Shown: in pieces, positions 26,781-50,881 of the stretch
Layout: every line of letters starts with the position of its first letter
Position numbering within the stretch: the first letter of the stretch is position 1
Made by a program: the position numbers and the translations under genes
NCBI GenBank assembly: GCA_017519865.1
Contig: JAFWRQ010000014.1
Span: 141,521 to 205,520, forward strand
Direction of reading: 5' to 3'
Origin: Bacteroidales bacterium
GTDB lineage: Bacteria; Bacteroidota; Bacteroidia; Bacteroidales; UBA932
Length of the DNA: 64,000 bases
Notes under the pieces: generated by a model
What the model saw: only the letters and a program-made list of their open reading frames with translations
What the model was told of the DNA's origin: nothing
The model's database searches: none

Positions 26781-28187
26781 TTACGCAAATAAGGAAATGA
26801 TAAGGGCGACAAGGAAACCTGTGCAGCCCACGAGCGTTTCCATGACGGTCCAGGTCTTCAGGGTGGTCTTCTCGTCCATGCCCAGAAGGGATCTGACAAG
26901 CCAGAAACCGGAGTCGTTGAAGTGGGAGCAGACGGTGGCGCCGCCGGCGATGGCGGCCGTGATGCAGGCGAGGTGCGTGGGCGATAGCCCGGCCACCTCT
27001 GGCATCGCGGCAATGATGCCGGCGGCCATCGTCATCGCCACGGTCGCCGAGCCTACTGAGATGCGTACCAAAGCCGCGACCAGGAATGCGACTATCACCA
27101 TCGGGAAAGATGCGGATGCCACCGCATTGCCGATAATCCCGCCCAGGCCGGAATACTGCAGGATGTAGCGGAGCACTCCGCCGCAGGCGGTGACCAGGAG
27201 TATGAGCCCGACGGGCTCCAGCGACCTGGTCATCACTTTCTCAAGTTCTGCGGCGGAGTAGCCGTTGCGGTAGCCCAGCAGGGCCATCGCAGCGATTGTG
27301 GCGATGGTCAGGGCAACGAACGGCTCACCGAGGAATCCTATTATTTTTCGCGCGGGCGCGAGCGCGTCCACTACGCCGGCAACGGACTTCAGAATAATGA
27401 GTATCAGGGGAATAAGGATGATGATGGCGACCGTCCAGAAGGACGGAAGGCGTCGCGTCGCTCCGGTCGACTGCGGACTTTTCGCGGCAGCGCTTTGCGG
27501 GCTCCGCGCGGCCTCCGCCGCACTCTCCTCAACAGCCTCCCGCGCCGGCACGAAGTACTTCTTCCCACAATATGCTCCCCAGATCGGCCCAGCCACTATC
27601 ATGGCCGCAACGCCGCAGACTGCGCCGACCATGATCACACGGCCCAGGTCCACCCCGAGCATCGCTGCCACCAGCACCGGGCCGGGAGTCGGCGGGATGA
27701 AAGCATGGCCGACCGCCAGACCCGCCAGAAGCGGAATGGCGTAATACAGAGTTGAACGACCGGTCCTCCTGGCCAGCGAAAAGGCCAGCGGAATCAGGAT
27801 AATGAGTCCGGCATCGAAGAAAACAGGTATGGCAATGACCAGTCCGGTTATGGCCAGGGCCCACGCGGCCTTTCGGTCTCCGAACTTGTCTACAAGTGTC
27901 TCGGCCAGCACCTTAGCCCCTCCGGAAATCTCCAGGATAGCTCCGAACATCGAGCCTAATCCCACCAGCAGGGCTATTCCCTTCAAGGTGTTCCCCACCC
28001 CGTCGTCCACAGCGGACACAATCTGGTCGAAAGGCATCCCGCTGCCCAACCCTATCAGGACCGCACCCACAAGGATGGCTATCATCGCCGGAACCTTGAA
28101 GCGGATTATAAGAACCAGCAGGATCACCAGCCCCACGAGGGCTGCGACCACCAAACGTGTCGGATCCAATGCTGCGATTTCGTTCAT
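26781..28187 (-). CDS. GntP-family gluconate/organic acid permease
   Basis: 468 residues, about 12-14 hydrophobic segments. Family features: LVGLGSMFGAILEISGGA, AIPVFFDAGLIILIPL, HAFIPPTPGPV and SHFNDSGFWL near the C-terminus. GntP transporters are proton symporters for gluconate, idonate or related sugar acids. A hydrophilic Ala/Ser/Pro stretch rich in AAAKSPQS-like repeats sits near residues 220-245 in the central cytoplasmic loop. It is transcribed in the same direction as the glucan locus but is separated from it by the susD relic and a promoter, so a shared role is not implied. Confidence 0.92.
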   Translation of the reverse strand: MNEIAALDPTRLVVAALVGLVILLVLIIRFKVPAMIAILVGAVLIGLGSGMPFDQIVSAVDDGVGNTLKGIALLVGLGSMFGAILEISGGAKVLAETLVDKFGDRKAAWALAITGLVIAIPVFFDAGLIILIPLAFSLARRTGRSTLYYAIPLLAGLAVGHAFIPPTPGPVLVAAMLGVDLGRVIMVGAVCGVAAMIVAGPIWGAYCGKKYFVPAREAVEESAAEAARSPQSAAAKSPQSTGATRRLPSFWTVAIIILIPLILIILKSVAGVVDALAPARKIIGFLGEPFVALTIATIAAMALLGYRNGYSAAELEKVMTRSLEPVGLILLVTACGGVLRYILQYSGLGGIIGNAVASASFPMVIVAFLVAALVRISVGSATVAMTMAAGIIAAMPEVAGLSPTHLACITAAIAGGATVCSHFNDSGFWLVRSLLGMDEKTTLKTWTVMETLVGCTGFLVALIISLFA

Positions 28188-28224
28188 ACCGTTCCGGTAA
28201 TGCTTATTCGTTAACCGTCAAATG

Positions 28225-28232
28225 CAAATATA
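28225..28232 (-). promoter_or_regulatory. Candidate -7 element (TATATTTG) for the permease gene
   Basis: Exact match to TAnnTTTG on the minus strand, about 38 nt before the permease ATG. I see no convincing -33 element. Confidence 0.4.
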
Positions 28233-28376
28233 ACAAAAACTCCTCACGCCTCCCCCATCATCCCTCGGAAATACTATGGGTTGAGTGCGCTTATCCCTCT
28301 TGGGCTTCCCTGGAAAGGCTCTCCCCGTTCTCAACGATTTGCGCATCTCCTCCCTTTTCCTTCTGCCATCCCCATT

Positions 28377-28507
28377 GGTGTGCAGCTAGGTCGCTTTTGC
28401 ACATGAGAGTGTTCTGTAGGTCGGTTTGGTGTGCAGTTTGGCCTCTTTTGCACACCGAGGTATTCTGTAGGGTGGTGTGGTGTGCAGTTTGGCCGTTTTT
28501 GCCCACC
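28377..28507 (+). repeat. Three 29-bp REP-like palindromes at exact 51-bp spacing
   Basis: Units at 28377-28404/5, 28428-28456 and 28479-28507. Each is GGTGTGCA, a 13-nt centre, then TGCACACC or a close variant. The spacers are also similar (core TTCTGTAGG), so the full period is a 51-bp repeat. They lie just downstream of the transposase-like gene and are shared with copies at 29515-29594, 47979-48007 and 50802-50881. All units point the same way on the plus strand, with a T-rich right arm. Confidence 0.9.
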
Positions 28508-28526
28508 GGGGGATTGGATGGGCGGG

Positions 28527-29453
28527 CTATGGGAAGAGTTCTTTCACGATTTGTGGATCGAGATTGAGGATGCGACGGATCTGACCGTTGGTGGCGTTGT
28601 ACCTGTTTTTCATTTCAATGGCGATGCTTATTTTCTGGTCTGGAGCGAGAATGGAGGGACGCGGCTGATTGAAGGTTTTCCTGCATAGGGCAGTTACGGC
28701 TGAGAAGAGTTCTTCATCTGTCAGAAACACTTGATCCCCAAGTCTTTTTGCCGTCTCTGAGTATGCCTCGTAACTCTTGGTTAAGAGAGAGAAATACTGA
28801 TGTGCATCTCGGAAAAACAGCTCTCCGCCGCTTATGTCCACGAATGATTTGATAGAGATCATCCCGTCCTTGACAATCCAGTCATCCGGCAACGGCTGTA
28901 TCCTTCCGCGACAGAGAATGCGTTTTTCCTTGTATGTTAGACTCGCAAAGGTGGTACCGTCCGCATCGAGTCCCGGATTGAAATAATGCCTGCCCGAACT
29001 CCAGGGATATGAGAAAGGTGTGTAGGAGGGATGGGCGAGATAACCGTTCCGATGCACGTATACAATCTCGTTGCGAAGGGCTTTAAGCGACTCAATGGGG
29101 ATGAGGTTGCAATTGAAGTTGTTCAGGTCCACCGTCCGCCCGGTCTCACGGACAAATCGTTGGAGTTTACGCTTCCTTCTGTCGAAAAACGCGAGGACCT
29201 CGTCACGATTGCCAGCGGCGATATCATGTAGATGGTTGGACATTACTGTGCTGGAGTAAATGACGACAGGACCTTTGGTGAGGGCGGCGGAATTGACCCC
29301 GATACGGTACTCCTGGTCAGTCAGGAAGATACACCCTTGGAGATTGCCCGGGGTGCAAATATGCCAGAAAGGCCCACGGGTGTTGAAGAGGTACTCACAG
29401 TATTCCTCTTTGCGCGCGAATTCAGCGCGGGGATTGTTGTTGAAGTTTTCCAT
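28527..29453 (-). CDS. REP-associated tyrosine transposase (RAYT), Y1 HUH family
   Basis: 308 residues. VIYSSTVMSNHLHDIAAG carries the HUH motif (His74-Leu-His76) in the expected SNHxH context. EIVYVHRNGYLAHP followed by YPWSSGRHY matches the conserved tail of the Y1 transposase domain, with Tyr132 or Tyr138 as candidate nucleophiles. The region after residue 165 is a long C-terminal extension ending in a helix-turn-helix-like element (IAIEMKNRYNATNGQIRRIL), seen in many Bacteroidetes RAYTs. RAYTs nick single-stranded hairpin DNA and mobilise REP palindromes; they are usually single-copy, domesticated genes. Three palindromes lie directly 3' and two directly 5', all of one family, which strongly supports the assignment. 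Complete, with no sign of decay. Confidence 0.88.
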   Translation of the reverse strand: MENFNNNPRAEFARKEEYCEYLFNTRGPFWHICTPGNLQGCIFLTDQEYRIGVNSAALTKGPVVIYSSTVMSNHLHDIAAGNRDEVLAFFDRRKRKLQRFVRETGRTVDLNNFNCNLIPIESLKALRNEIVYVHRNGYLAHPSYTPFSYPWSSGRHYFNPGLDADGTTFASLTYKEKRILCRGRIQPLPDDWIVKDGMISIKSFVDISGGELFFRDAHQYFSLLTKSYEAYSETAKRLGDQVFLTDEELFSAVTALCRKTFNQPRPSILAPDQKISIAIEMKNRYNATNGQIRRILNLDPQIVKELFP

Positions 29454-29514
29454 GCGCCAAAACTAGCAAAAGATCCGTCTCCGCACATATAAAAAGATAT
29501 ATTTCTAGCGGCCC

Positions 29515-29594
29515 GGTGTGAAATATATATGTTTTTTCACACCGAGGATGTCTGTGGGTCGGTTTGGTGTGCAGTTTGGTCGCCTTTGCACACC
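29515..29594 (+). repeat. Two 29-bp REP-like palindromes, 51 bp apart
   Basis: Units 29515-29543 and 29566-29594 lie upstream of the RAYT gene. The second matches the GGTGTGCA/TGCACACC family. In the first the seventh stem base is A, not C, and its partner is T, not G, so pairing is kept (GGTGTGAA/TTCACACC). The centre of that unit is AT-rich. The spacing is again exactly 51 bp. Confidence 0.9.
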
Positions 29595-29644
29595 GAGAGA
29601 TCAGTGGGAAGGCCGCGAAAGATCAGGCGGGCAGAAGGGGAGGG

Positions 29645-30829
29645 TCAGGATTTTGGCCGGAAGAGACGGTCGATGACGAGGGCGATGGCTCCGTCGCCGG
29701 TGACGTTGCAGGCCGTGCCGAAGGAGTCCATGGCGATGTAGAGGGCGATCATCAGTGCCTGAGCTTCGGCGCCGAAGCCCAGGATGGAGCTGAGCGGCGC
29801 GAGGGCTGCCATGACGGCTCCGCCGGGCACCCCGGGCGCCGCCACCATCATGATACCTAGCATCAGGATGAATTCAAGGAACAGGGGGAAGGAGTGCGGC
29901 ATGCCGTTCATCAGGCAGACGGCCAGGGCGCAGCAGGTGATCTTCATCGCGCTGCCGGACATGTGGATGGTGGCGCAGAGAGGCACGCTGAAGCCTGCGA
30001 CCTCCTCGCGCACTCCGTTGGCGATGGTCTGCCGCAGCGTAACCGGGATGGTCGCTGCGGACGAAGATGTGCCCAATGCCGTGAAATAGGCGGGCAGCAT
30101 GCCTGCGAGCAGTTTCAGCGGATTCCTCTTGACCACCGCGCCGGCAATGCAGAACTCATAGAGCAGAATGAATATATGCAGTGCGAATATGACCAGGATG
30201 ATCATCGCAAAAACCTTCAGGACAGGGAAAACCTTGCCCGAGCAGGTCATATCCAGGAATATACCGAAAATATACAACGGCAGCAACGGGATGATGAGTT
30301 TCTCGATAGTCCTGGCGATGGCGCTGCGGAACTCCGAGAAGAAGCCCTTGAGGACCGGCAGGTCCATGTGGGCTATGCACAGTCCGAAGATGAACGAGAA
30401 CACCAGCGCCGTCATGACGTCCATCATCGAAGGAATGTTGATCGTGAAATATGGCTCTAGACCCGCGCCGGCGGCCGCGATGTCGGCCGGGCCGGCCTTG
30501 GATACGAGCGAGGGGAAGATCGCTTCCCCGACTCCGTATCCAAGCCCCGCGGCAAGGGCAGTGTCGAGATAAGCGATGGCCACGGTCACCAGAAGCATCT
30601 TCCCGGCGCTCTTGCCGATGTCGCCGATCGCGGCCGTGACGAGCCCGAGGATGATCAGGGGAATGAGGAATCCCAGCAACTGGGAGAATATTCCGTTGAA
30701 TGTAAGGAATATTCTGACGAACCATCCGGGCATCACCAGACCCAGTACGATGCCCAGTACTATCGCAATCAATACCCTCGGGAGGAGCCCGATGCGTCCT
30801 CGCTTCAATATGACGGAGTTAGCAGCCAT
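29645..30829 (-). CDS. Dicarboxylate/amino acid:cation symporter (DAACS family)
   Basis: 394 residues, about eight transmembrane helices plus two re-entrant loops. The serine-rich motif TALGTSSSAATIPVTL, the ATIHMSGSAMK segment and the DSFGTACNVTGDGAIALVID motif are those of the GltP/DctA family. It would import dicarboxylates, glutamate/aspartate or serine/threonine with Na+ or H+. Transcribed divergently from the DUF4988 operon with a 109-bp shared promoter region. Confidence 0.93.
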   Translation of the reverse strand: MAANSVILKRGRIGLLPRVLIAIVLGIVLGLVMPGWFVRIFLTFNGIFSQLLGFLIPLIILGLVTAAIGDIGKSAGKMLLVTVAIAYLDTALAAGLGYGVGEAIFPSLVSKAGPADIAAAGAGLEPYFTINIPSMMDVMTALVFSFIFGLCIAHMDLPVLKGFFSEFRSAIARTIEKLIIPLLPLYIFGIFLDMTCSGKVFPVLKVFAMIILVIFALHIFILLYEFCIAGAVVKRNPLKLLAGMLPAYFTALGTSSSAATIPVTLRQTIANGVREEVAGFSVPLCATIHMSGSAMKITCCALAVCLMNGMPHSFPLFLEFILMLGIMMVAAPGVPGGAVMAALAPLSSILGFGAEAQALMIALYIAMDSFGTACNVTGDGAIALVIDRLFRPKS

Positions 30830-37018: not shown

Positions 37019-37146
37019 CAACCCTCAACCCCGGTGGAGGGTTACCCTACTTTTTTGCAAAATCCCTCGCAACCCTCAACCCCCGGTGGAGGGTTACCCT
37101 GCTTTTCAGCAAAATCCCTCGCAACCCTCAACCCACGGCGGAGGGT
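37019..37146 (+). repeat. Three palindromes AACCCTC...GAGGGTT at 51-52 bp spacing
   Basis: Units begin at about 37020, 37071 and 37123. Centre is CCCCGGTG-like, and the spacer TTTGCAAAATCCCTCGC is conserved between the first two. With two flanking bases on each side the palindrome is 28-29 bp, the same unit length and period as the RAYT-linked family but with an unrelated sequence. Confidence 0.85.
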
Positions 37147-37339
37147 TAAACCAGTTTACCCAGTGGGTTGGGCAGGAAGGACGCTAGAAAAACACCTTGA
37201 GCGATAAAACGGCTCGGAGAGGCTTAGAAGGCATTTCGTGACTTAAGGTCCCATATGATTTACCGGTACCTTGATCGGTGATAGGTCTTATATGTAGCTA
37301 CATTGCGGATTAGCTCACAAGGTGTTTTTCCGTAATGTT

Positions 37340-42869: not shown

Positions 42870-42948
42870 CCCGAAGGTTCCGCTGAAAAATGCCGCATCC
42901 TTCGGGAAATGCCCGAAGGTACCGCTGAAAAACGGCACATCCTTCGGG
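42870..42948 (+). repeat. Two 37-bp palindromes CCCGAAGG...CCTTCGGG, 42-bp period
   Basis: Units 42870-42906 and 42912-42948. The stem is a perfect 8 bp; the 21-nt centre (CCGCTGAAAAA core) is conserved with four or five differences. Only 5 bp separate the units. Confidence 0.85.
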
Positions 42949-42987
42949 AAAACAGCTTACCTTCCGCGGGGAAGGGCGGGGAGCGCC

Positions 42988-43364: not shown

Positions 43365-43474
43365 CACAGAATGAATGAGAGTGCAGTGGCGTTCATTCTG
43401 TGGCCGAAAATCTGCCCGTTGGGAGCCTTTTCCTGCCATAGAATGGATGTTGGGGCGGTTCTGTTCATTCTGTG
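43365..43474 (+). repeat. Two 38-bp palindromes CACAGAATGAA...TTCATTCTGTG
   Basis: 43365-43402 has a perfect 11-bp stem and a 16-nt loop. 43437-43474 is a weaker copy (CATAGAATGGA arm), 72 bp downstream. A lone half-arm, TTCATTCTGCG, lies at about 43140. Confidence 0.75.
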
Positions 43475-47857: not shown

Positions 47858-47902
47858 TTAACGCGCGTCGTAGTTCGTGCCGGTATAGAGGACTCTTTGC
47901 AT
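47858..47902 (-). pseudogene. Truncated 5' copy of the small gene at 50527
   Basis: Reads MQRVLYTGTNYDAR then TAA, matching the start MQRVFYTGTNFDEV of the intact gene. The upstream 100 bp, including a TATATTTG -7 element at 47924-47931 and a 29-bp palindrome at 47979, are also shared with 50691-50830. A duplicated promoter-plus-start fragment. Confidence 0.8.
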
Positions 47903-47978
47903 TGTGCCACCTCGTTTCAAGAACAAATATACGATTTTGTTCCTAATTCGCGTGCTACGAGGCCCTTCGTGCCGCCCC

Positions 47979-48007
47979 GGTGTGCAAAATGGCCGTTTTT
48001 GCGCACG
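47979..48007 (+). repeat. 29-bp RAYT-family palindrome
   Basis: GGTGTGCA, 13 nt (AAATGGCCGTTTT core), TGCGCACG. Same family and orientation as the copies flanking the RAYT gene, about 18.5 kb away. It sits at the edge of a larger repeat of about 140 bp shared with 50691-50830. Confidence 0.88.
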
Positions 48008-48036
48008 GGGAGGGTGGGGGCGAGGCAGTCTCGCAT

Positions 48037-48044
48037 TATTTTTG
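48037..48044 (+). promoter_or_regulatory. Candidate -7 element (TATTTTTG) for the TPR regulator
   Basis: Exact TAnnTTTG, 42 nt before the ATG at 48079. The -33 region is G-rich and poor. Confidence 0.4.
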
Positions 48045-48078
48045 CTCCCGTTAAGTGTGGATTAGCAAAATGAGCGAT

Positions 48079-49647
48079 ATGAGAAAGGCGATTCTGGTCC
48101 TGATGGTCGCGGGGGGCGTGGTGGCGTGCTCCCGCACCGGTGGCGTCGGCTTCCGGGAAGCTGAAGCGATGCTGGACAGTGCGCGGGTGCAGGAGGCCGA
48201 GTACGGGTTCGTGCCGGCGGCGGACGAGGAGGGGCTGGCCGAAGCGGCGGAGTATTTCGAGAAGAAGGGCTCCGCGGAGGAGCGGCTCGCCGCGTGGTCC
48301 TTGCTGGGCAAGGTACAGCTGGCGGATGACGCCCTGTACCGCGCGGTCGTCTCCTTCGAGCACGCGCTCGCAGCAGCGGGCGAGCTCAAGGACGACGGCG
48401 CCCGCGGCGAGATCTGCCGCCAGCTCGCGTACGCTTACAACGCCTCCGGCCAGCACGTCGCCGCGGCGCGCCAGCTTTACGAATCCTACCAGGCCTTCAA
48501 CCGCGCCTCGATGGACGAGGAGAGCCGCAGGACGCTGCTCGAATACGGCCAGGCGTGGTACAACTTCGAACGATACGACGACGCTGCGTCCATTTTCAAT
48601 ACCGTGCTCGCAGAGTCAATCGAGGCGAAGGACACCTTGACCCAGGTCCGCTGTCTCCAGAACTACTCCGCGATGCTGGTGGAGATGGACCCTGTCGACC
48701 CCGCGCTTGCGCGGGATATGCTCGTCCGCGTGAGGGACGAGCTGCATTACCCGCTGGGCAGCGCGGACTGAGGAGTGTTGGCCTACGCGGCCGCCCTGAT
48801 GGGCCAAGACGCCGAGGCGCAGCGCTGCCTCCTGCAAGCGCGCGCCCGCGTCGAGACGGTCTCCGACCGCAACAGGCTGCATTTCCGCGAATACCAGGTG
48901 GCTTCCCGCGCCGGCAGGACCGCCCAGGCGCTCCAGGCGCTGGAGAGGGTGACGGCCTCCGGCAACGAGGAGGACATCTCCGCCCTGCGGAGCGCTGTAA
49001 CCCTGGCCCGCGAGGACTATCTCCAGGCCCGCGAGGCGCTCGCCTCCGCGCGGCTCCGGGCCCAGCGGCTGGGGCAGATCGCCCTGCTGCTACTGCTTAT
49101 AGCCGTAGGCAGCACGGCGCTGTGGTATCTGCGCGCCCGCCGCATCGCCAACGAGAAGGCCCTGGCAGAGGAGCGGGCTGAGACCGAGCGCTACATCGGC
49201 ATAGCCGAAGAGCTGCAGGCGCGGCTGGGAGAGACCTCCCGACGCCTGCGCGACACCGCCTCCGGCAAGAACGAGGTCCTGGAGCGTCTCTGCGAGCAGT
49301 ATTACGTCTTCGAGGGCACGGACAAGCTTCAGAACAACCTCCTAAAGGAAGTCCGGCAGGCCGTCGAAGGACTCCGGAACGACAAGAAAGTCCAGGCACG
49401 CCTGGAACGCTCGGTAGACGCTTCGCGTGACGGGGCCGCTGCAAAACTGCGCGCCCAGCTCCCCAACTGCAAGGAGGAGGACGTCCGCCTCTTCGTCCTC
49501 GCGGCCTCCGGATTCAGCCGCACTGCGATGGCCACGCTGATGGACAAAGAAAAAGGGGTGATAAACAACCGCCTCTGGCGCCTCAAGGGGCGCATCGCGG
49601 ACTCCGACGCCCCCGACAAGGACCTGCTTTTGAGCTGTCTGGAGTAG
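48079..49647 (+). pseudogene. TPR-transmembrane-HTH regulator interrupted by one in-frame TGA
   Basis: One frame of 523 codons. Lipoprotein-like or signal-anchor start (MRKAILVLMVAGGVVACS), TPR-like helical repeats (AWSLLGKVQLADDALYRAVV, LAYAYNASGQHVAAARQLYE), a transmembrane helix at about 335-355 (IALLLLLIAVGSTALWYL), a coiled coil, and a C-terminal helix-turn-helix-like segment (DVRLFVLAASGFSRTAMATL, then INNRLWRLKGRIAD). TGA at 48769-48771 splits SAD from GVLAYAAALMG; the frame is identical on both sides and TPR character continues. This architecture is common among Bacteroidetes regulators. Read as intact, it would start at 48079, 48070 or a GTG at 48055. Confidence 0.75.
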
Positions 49648-50526: not shown

Positions 50527-50724
50527 TCAGCCCTGCTTTTCTACCCGAAGGGCGCCGTCGTCTTCAAGGACGATGGCGTCCCCTTCGTTTACGGACTCGA
50601 AACCATCGCCCGTATCGACCGACAACATCGTGAAACCCATGCAGAAGTACGGCGCCAGGACCCTGTCGCCGCACAACCGCTTCACTTCGTCGAAGTTCGT
50701 ACCGGTATAGAAAACTCTTTGCAT
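50527..50724 (-). CDS. Small conserved protein of unknown function (65 aa)
   Basis: MQRVFYTGTNFDEVKRLCGD, then a compact beta-rich remainder (VLAPYFCMGFTMLS, DAIVLEDDGALRVEKQG). I have seen similar small proteins in Bacteroidales, sometimes near phage genes, but cannot name it. A frame-upstream Met 24 bp earlier is less likely: the MQRV start is also conserved in the truncated copy at 47858. A TATATTTG element lies 22 bp upstream. Confidence 0.7.
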   Translation of the reverse strand: MQRVFYTGTNFDEVKRLCGDRVLAPYFCMGFTMLSVDTGDGFESVNEGDAIVLEDDGALRVEKQG

Positions 50725-50745
50725 CGTGCGAGCTCGTTTCAAGAA

Positions 50746-50753
50746 CAAATATA
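50746..50753 (-). promoter_or_regulatory. Candidate -7 element (TATATTTG) for the 65-aa gene
   Basis: Exact TAnnTTTG within an imperfect GAACA/TGTTC inverted repeat (50743-50765). The same element and dyad occur at 47921-47941 next to the truncated copy. Confidence 0.5.
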
Positions 50754-50801
50754 CGGATTATGTTCCTAATTCGCGTGCTGCGAGGCCCTTCGAGCCGCCC
50801 C

Positions 50802-50881
50802 CGTGTGCAGAATCGCCGTTTTTGCACACGAAACCGCTATTTATGCCCCGCTGGTGTGCGAAAGAGCCGTTTTTGCACACG
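50802..50881 (+). repeat. Two 29-bp RAYT-family palindromes, 51 bp apart
   Basis: Units 50802-50830 (CGTGTGCA/TGCACACG) and 50853-50881 (GGTGTGCG/TGCACACG), spacing exactly 51. The centre GCCGTTTT is shared with the copies at 28479 and 47979. The spacer differs from the RAYT-adjacent spacers. Confidence 0.9.

Follow-up and report, generated by a model that had tools for sequence, protein, structure and literature searches.

The closest described systems to the locus studied here are the REPtrons of E. coli and Stenotrophomonas, in which an HUH/tyrosine protein, the RAYT or TnpAREP, has private palindromes, the REPs, on both sides (PMC2817692, PMC8266576, PMC6006769). Their palindromes occur in dispersed copies, protein and palindrome change jointly, and several systems are found per genome. 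RAYTs from E. coli, Stenotrophomonas and Marinomonas cut their cognate single-stranded hairpins, and two RAYT groups differ in hairpin recognition, partly via the loop (PMC8266576). REPINs are short mobile units of two hairpins, arranged as inverted doublets, and at some sites REPs form tandem arrays of fixed spacing (112/72 bp; evenly spaced GI; PMC3116915). IS200/IS605 elements have HUH/tyrosine chemistry and hairpin ends as well (PMC6006769), with one left and one right end.

A catalogue of TnpAY1 proteins was built by searching complete genomes with the Pfam model Y1_Tnp (E < 0.01; Quentin et al., 2018; PMC6006769). Its subclass 2.6 comes from Bacteroidetes and has atypical flanking hairpins without GT[AG]G, with copies elsewhere in the genome; the accessible part of the description gives 179, which we read as the length in amino acids, and the motif YIH[QN]NP, and it mentions neither a period nor a direct tandem arrangement. 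Subclass 2.1 carries a long C-terminal domain, HTH or DnaA_C-like, and, according to the same part of the source, is without REP-like sequences.

Here, we analyse a stretch of 64,000 nucleotides from a Bacteroidales bacterium (GenBank assembly GCA_017519865.1, contig JAFWRQ010000014.1, positions 141,521 to 205,520), hereafter the window, which holds a gene for a protein of this kind. The locus shares with REPtrons the HUH/tyrosine protein, the private palindromes on both sides of the gene, the joint change of protein and palindrome, the presence of several systems in one genome and probably the dispersed copies, but its hairpins have no GT[AG]G at the foot, are direct rather than inverted and follow a fixed 51-bp unit, and its protein has a long C-terminal region and is missed by standard models. 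REPINs share the use of short hairpin units; their doublets are inverted, whereas most units here are direct, and the period characterises an entire clade rather than some sites. The likeness to subclass 2.6 extends to the Bacteroidota host, the atypical hairpins and probably the copies elsewhere, but not to a protein of 308 aa with the motif YVHRNG (Y-V-x-R-N in the family). Likewise, the length and the conserved C-terminal region recall subclass 2.1, but the family has arrays. IS200/IS605 differs in that many units are found here and that the gene is mostly stationary in close orthologues. Single features have precedents, namely hairpins without GT[AG]G (PMC6006769) and evenly spaced tandem REP arrays (PMC3116915); the arrangement as such was not found described in titles and abstract openings on RAYTs, REPINs and Bacteroidetes/Bacteroidales, a survey that covered few subscription papers or preprints. 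The 51-bp clade is a variant of the REPtron kind and not a classical GTAG RAYT. The first-pass annotation had suspected a distinct type, and judged by the accessible subclass descriptions in PMC6006769 the clade indeed lies outside all of them.

A RAYT-like gene between its own palindromes

The neighbours of the gene at 28527-29453 encode a permease of the GntP family (26781-28187) on one side and a sodium:dicarboxylate symporter (29645-30829) on the other. From the sequence alone, it had been described as flanked by its own palindromes, three on the 3' and two on the 5' side, all in one orientation and 51 bp apart, and the coordinates bear this out (Table 1). Each of the five hairpins spans 29 nt, with an 8-bp stem and a 13-nt loop; on either side of the gene, neighbouring hairpins start exactly 51 bp from each other, and all five have the same orientation, judged by loop and spacer. 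The pattern GGTGTGCA-N13-TGCACACC, with up to 3 mismatches, has 16 sites genome-wide versus 1 for a reversed-pattern control, and pairs with the same stem occur in 0/154 Markov-shuffled flanks, so the hairpins are not a product of chance. Five of the 16 sites are those at the gene, seven are related copies elsewhere and four are seemingly unrelated or chance matches. When folded as single-stranded DNA, four of the five hairpins beat the mean of their own shuffles by at least 1.6 sd; the one at 28479 does not (z -0.32). An Rfam search of window positions 28000-30000 gave no match.

Table 1. Coordinates of the features discussed, in window positions.
Feature	Position	Strand	Basis or remark
Gene of the RAYT-like Y1 HUH protein, 308 aa plus stop	28527..29453	minus	ORF and translation; homology by profile
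HUH motif, codons H74-L75-H76	29226..29234	minus	H74/H76 invariant in alignments; coordinates from reading frame
Codon Y132, presumed catalytic tyrosine	29058..29060	minus	Invariant in alignments; aligned with tyrosine of RAYT-like proteins
C-terminal region, residues 245-308, HTH-like by eye only	28530..28721	minus	Conservation; also present in further long RAYT-like proteins from the genus
Hairpin unit 1, 3' side of gene	28377..28405		2 mismatches to consensus stem
Hairpin unit 2, 3' side of gene	28428..28456		Stem perfect, 8 bp
Hairpin unit 3, 3' side of gene	28479..28507		1 stem mismatch; 19 nt from stop codon
Hairpin unit 4, 5' side of gene	29515..29543		TGTGAA/TTCACA variant, fully paired, both arms changed
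Hairpin unit 5, 5' side of gene	29566..29594		Stem perfect, 8 bp
GTGTGC-type hairpin, single	47979..48007		Mechanical ORF 47917-48456 (minus) overlaps; intergenic place likely
Dispersed hairpin, first of 51-bp pair	50802..50830		No overlapping ORF of at least 150 aa
Dispersed hairpin, second of 51-bp pair	50853..50881

Searched on its own, the window protein has no meaningful match in Pfam or NCBIfam, Y1_Tnp included, and would therefore be missed by the route on which the catalogue of PMC6006769, in its accessible description, was built. We assembled two alignments, A1 with 37 proteins of the genus, the window protein counted, and A3 with 69 proteins, of which 68 are relatives taken from named records and one is the window protein. 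With an E cut-off of 0.01, Y1_Tnp matches 3/37 proteins of A1 and 10/69 of A3, and the NCBIfam model REP_Tyr_transpos matches 8/37 and 7/69, respectively; PADLOC and PHROGs gave weak matches only, in 1-2 of the 69 members of A3. H74, H76, Y132 and N136 are invariant in both alignments (37/37 and 69/69), and the tyrosine motif YVHRNG is of the Y-x-x-R-N type, with R135 present in 35/37 proteins of A1. The window protein thus has the HUH motif and the single, presumably catalytic tyrosine expected of the Y1 HUH superfamily (TnpAY1). The relationship to the RAYT/TnpAREP core emerges in profile-profile steps: the A3 profile matches 15 Bacteroidota RAYT-like proteins (hhalign, 98.4%, E 4e-15) over a region spanning HUH and tyrosine, and the profile of these 15 proteins in turn matches E. 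coli TnpAREP 4er8 at 1e-13. By these comparisons, the window protein is a divergent RAYT-like Y1 HUH protein, in agreement with its initial assignment.

The same assignment had included a long C-terminal HTH extension. The C-terminal region is conserved, for instance at Q291 and L296, and the window family aligns with 14 further long RAYT-like proteins from the genus over nearly the full length, C-terminus included (E 8e-41); the HTH label, given by eye, found no match to an HTH family in the searched libraries.

Arrays with a near-constant unit length throughout a clade

Relatives occur in 51 of the 61 genomes searched in the genus, the own genome included. In the own genome (2.12 Mb, 75% complete), a direct protein search gave 8 matches, window gene counted, and the family model adds 3 RAYT-like places. 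Three of the paralogues (L004, L005, L006) each have a different private hairpin on both sides at 50-51-bp spacing, with the exception of one 21-bp gap at L004 and two 42-bp gaps at L005. The flanks of L005 mix two stem variants, AAGAACA and AAGCACA; units of the latter recur at one distant place (L090, G000:C37:5556-5675), and 51- and 42-bp spacings are found there as well as at L005. At the RAYT-like paralogues L007 (G000:C23:27918-28781), L008 (G000:C37:1315-1887) and L009 (G000:C37:45333-45734), a tandem array of the 51-bp type was not detected.

A strict detector, which accepts hairpin pairs 49-53 bp apart, found such pairs in 45/76 upstream and 38/78 downstream flanks of 80 named loci, versus 0/154 shuffled flanks and 0/159 genome segments. 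We then used a relaxed detector (48-54 bp) on 114 loci, comprising the 80 named ones and 34 from genome searches, some present twice; L007-L009, as distant paralogues without a tandem array, were left out of this set. It found arrays at 97/114 loci versus 9/114 control segments, the latter being stretches of the own genome that themselves hold some arrays, and six other 7-bp spacing bands gave 0-8 of 114 loci. No array was found by this detector at 17/114 loci, among them L026, where separate inspection did reveal 51-bp spacing.

The modal period is 51 bp at 81 of the 97 array loci, 52 at 10, 50 at 4, and 49 and 53 at 1 each, while the hairpins measure 18-38 nt. Grouped by hairpin, the 91 distinct loci make up about 38 families, with less than 75% arm similarity between families; a few of these (L108, L121, L122, L135) are doubtful as detections. 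The period is 51 bp in 29/38 families and 50-52 bp in 37/38. The 51-bp hairpin array is a real, statistically strong and clade-wide feature, and the window gene, like most of its relatives, is flanked by palindromes of its own, a trait of RAYTs.

At many loci, hairpins are found in the leader region and no more than about 20 nt away from the stop codon. Such positions would suit operators or RNA attenuators that the protein, perhaps via its C-terminal region, binds for autoregulation, and hairpin effects on the expression of the IS200 transposase are mentioned in the accessible part of PMC3733652. For autoregulation, however, neither the arrays on the 3' side nor distant dispersed copies are needed, nor array sizes that reach 15-19 units at some loci, and we consider it very unlikely that this is what the arrays are for; autoregulation may be a secondary role of the hairpins.

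Hairpins and proteins change together

Across the 91 loci that remain of the 97 after removal of 6 duplicate proteins, hairpin similarity follows protein similarity (Mantel test, r 0.46, reached in 0/2000 permutations). Hairpin-arm similarity is 0.95 above 90% protein identity and falls to 0.43-0.48 below 50%, and proteins that are 75-87% identical can have different stems.

Pairing was evaluated in 29 units of 11 related loci, with L163, L172 and L031 of an original 14 loci and the distant units of L166 and L167 left out. Standard pairs make up 94.6% of the cells versus 78% in shuffles, a count that is partly built in, as the detector picks paired arms; this does not apply to changes in both arms, which occur in 31 cells versus 11.5 in shuffles (0/500). 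Pair positions that carry double changes are no more numerous than in the shuffles (4 versus 3.6; 312/500).

With one consensus taken per locus, the common loop centre consists of an A-tract, GGCC and a T-tract. A loop of the form AAA-N2-9-TTT is found at 54/91 loci versus 39/850 control hairpins, with one pattern applied to both, and GGC or GCC stands at the loop centre at 68/91 loci versus 279/850 controls. Read on the gene strand, the loops at the window gene contain the A-tract and, as their core, either GGCC or GACC; AAAC stands where the T-tract would be expected.

Copies away from the gene

Hairpins of the GTGTGC type occur at 7 further positions, at 4 places of the own genome: those in the window (Table 1), three on contig C36, at spacings of 51 and 50 bp, and a single one on contig C12. 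Copies are therefore not confined to the window; had they been, the functional link between palindrome and protein would, by the initial description, have failed. They differ from the units at the gene in the loop and, often, in the outer base pair, and their owner may be another paralogue, missing from the 75% complete genome. Within the window, a 143-bp duplication (47866-48007 and 50688-50830, 89.5%) has its end at the hairpin; one of its copies comes with a single unit, the other with two units 51 bp apart.

The functional link had also been said to fail if the palindrome occurred in genomes lacking this RAYT. The palindrome is absent from 60/60 other sampled genomes of the genus at up to 1 mismatch, which is a weak test, as no homologue above 46% identity is among the matches listed there. 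In genome G057, the hairpin of L045 is also found away from its gene, partly at 51-bp spacing (C5, C27), in a noisy scan with 44 matches versus 15 in the control. The scan of genome G045 (4 forward and 6 reverse matches versus 3 and 4 in the control) used a pattern one base too long and is not taken as evidence.

Other hairpin families of the own genome are dispersed at other unit lengths. The hairpin of paralogue L010 has 23 copies, 22 of them in 11 pairs at exactly 72 bp (control 0), and two of these pairs sit at the L010 gene; the linker of this family is itself palindromic, so that direct and inverted orientation cannot be told apart. For the hairpin of paralogue L212, 48 copies were counted at 22 places; the gaps between them include 23 of 42 bp and 3 of 41 bp (control 0).

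Members of such families are also seen in the window. A pair of 38-nt hairpins of the CACAGAATGAA family, as at L010, lies at 43365-43474, exactly 72 bp apart; hairpins of the CCTTCGGG/CCCGAAGG type, a family as at L212, lie 42 bp apart at 42871-42950; and a further pair (AACCCTCAACCC..GGAGGGTT) lies 52 bp apart at 37071-37147. The L010 protein has H-D-H in place of H-hydrophobic-H at the HUH motif.

Array dynamics and inheritance of the gene

Orthologues at shared sites have arrays that differ by whole units, as counted by the detector, for example L116 (4,5) versus L119 (2,2) and L030 (3,3) versus L155 (2,2). Gene flanks are shared in 14/15 testable pairs at 90-99% protein identity, in 41/68 at 80-90% and in 31/154 at 60-80%, a range in which DNA divergence hides sharing; the ortholog pairs in these counts are not independent. 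The gene is mostly inherited in place. We considered L158 and L159 as a recent jump of a whole element, given their 99% identical proteins and unshared far flanks, and rejected this case: the borders are unreadable, and L158 carries a partial gene end and an array upstream. This partial end and array ahead of the full gene look as they would after a tandem duplication.

Hairpin-bearing tandem repeats are slippage-prone, and whole-unit differences around a gene that seldom changes place are what one would see if replication slippage or recombination had expanded repeats lying beside a domesticated gene, with an inherited 51-bp period and an enzyme that moves nothing. Mere inheritance would, however, have to preserve a period of 50-52 bp in 37/38 hairpin families that are less than 75% similar in their arms, and to do so while the hairpin changes with the protein. 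Nor would it account for copies at other places of the genome, or for the dispersal of related families, one in pairs at exactly 72 bp and one in 42-bp arrays. We therefore regard slippage as an unlikely explanation.

Guide motif, orientation and phylogeny

In the initial description, a conserved spacer of the GTAG/GTGG type was part of the unit. At the window gene, this holds in so far as TCTGTAGG/TCTGTGGG is common to its units; the spacer is confined to them and absent from the linkers of the dispersed copies, of which one of the two on C36 has GTGG in a different context. A general role of the motif as a guide was rejected. GT[AG]G lies 0-2 nt from the hairpin foot in 24/1016 cases versus 17 in shuffles, which is near chance, and at 0/10 feet of the window locus, which in this respect differs from classical RAYTs; linkers contain it less often than shuffles do (58/303 versus 103). 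A search for unit borders from the array ends found sharing above background only for ~4 nt 5' and ~3 nt 3' of the foot, and neither another guide nor a cleavage site emerged from it.

The claim of a direct arrangement rather than inverted pairs proved right beyond the window: adjacent units are direct at 85/96 loci, inverted at 7 and tied at 4. Upstream and downstream arrays are direct to each other at 57/71 loci, inverted at 12 and tied at 2, and the window locus, being direct, lacks the inverted flanking REPs of classical RAYTs.

The left and right ends of IS200/IS605 elements would show direct orientation as well. Together with the HUH motif and single tyrosine, the direct orientation across both sides could thus point to an active insertion sequence of this type with unusual multiple ends. 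Near-identical copies elsewhere and single hairpin ends would then be expected, but the paralogues in the own genome have diverged, none being more than 35% identical to the window protein, the arrays consist of several units, and the four array-bearing paralogues of the 51-bp type have different hairpins. Moreover, gene context is mostly kept in close orthologues, relatives were not found in plasmid, phage and viral-contig collections, and the motif is Y-x-x-R-N rather than the Y[IV]ENQ given for subclass 1.1 in the accessible part of PMC6006769. An active insertion sequence is, in our assessment, hardly probable.

In a tree of 76 chosen proteins, computed with a quick support method, all 42 rows with the 51-bp-type trait and 11 labelled undetected form a single branch (SH-aLRT 95); L040 is among those marked undetected, although the relaxed detector found 52-bp units there. 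RAYTs have reportedly been grouped by Bertels and colleagues (2017). Outside the 51-bp branch, single hairpins on either side are common, and other periods are 42, 52 and 72 bp. The tree labels had suggested inverted arrangements outside the clade and direct ones inside, a contrast that failed on recount: the label 'inverted' was not upheld for L209, L212 and L070, and among 20 outside loci checked, seven are clearly inverted (L191, L192, L050, L072, L197, L205, L206), four are direct (L207 and L208, both with 52-bp units, L211, L213), two are mixed (L055, L201), and the remainder are weak or undecided. Period and tandem arrangement mark the clade; outside it, orientation is mixed.

A possible mechanism and its meaning

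We propose, with a probability of roughly 0.68, that the locus is a REPtron-like element whose RAYT-type HUH nuclease moves direct, fixed-length hairpin units as single-stranded DNA. The computed basis is the anatomy, the homology, a period that stays constant while hairpins vary, hairpins that change jointly with the protein, pairing retained where both arms have changed, the whole-unit differences and the dispersed copies of a related subtype. From the analogy with RAYTs and the constant period, we infer activity, binding, nicking, strand transfer, mobility, the cleavage position and a period set by the enzyme.

The RAYT-type single-strand nuclease would recognise its private hairpin, with specificity coming from the stem and with the loop centre of most families (A-tract, GGCC, T-tract) as a common handle. 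Y132 would then nick every unit, in single-stranded form, at the same position. Because the units share their orientation and the 51-bp distance from hairpin to hairpin, nicks at two neighbouring units would free a piece of unit length (51 nt), which may be rejoined beside another unit or elsewhere. Through such release and rejoining, arrays would grow and shrink by whole units, and a few copies would arise elsewhere.

More tentatively, and as a reading that we find conceivable though not the one to be expected, the RAYT-like paralogues of the genus may represent a radiation of ruler nucleases. Each of them would have a hairpin of its own and a unit length typical of its clade (42, 51, 52 or 72 bp), determined by enzyme geometry, and would move its hairpins as direct, integer-length single-stranded cassettes.

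The 51-bp clade bears on two open questions, namely how a RAYT selects its palindrome and which unit moves. It provides many natural enzyme-hairpin pairs with different stems, a mostly common loop centre and a near-constant unit length, so that recognition code and unit length are directly testable by swaps. If the radiation of ruler nucleases were true, a single genome would harbour several parallel hairpin-array systems that do not cross-react and that diversify like locks and keys.
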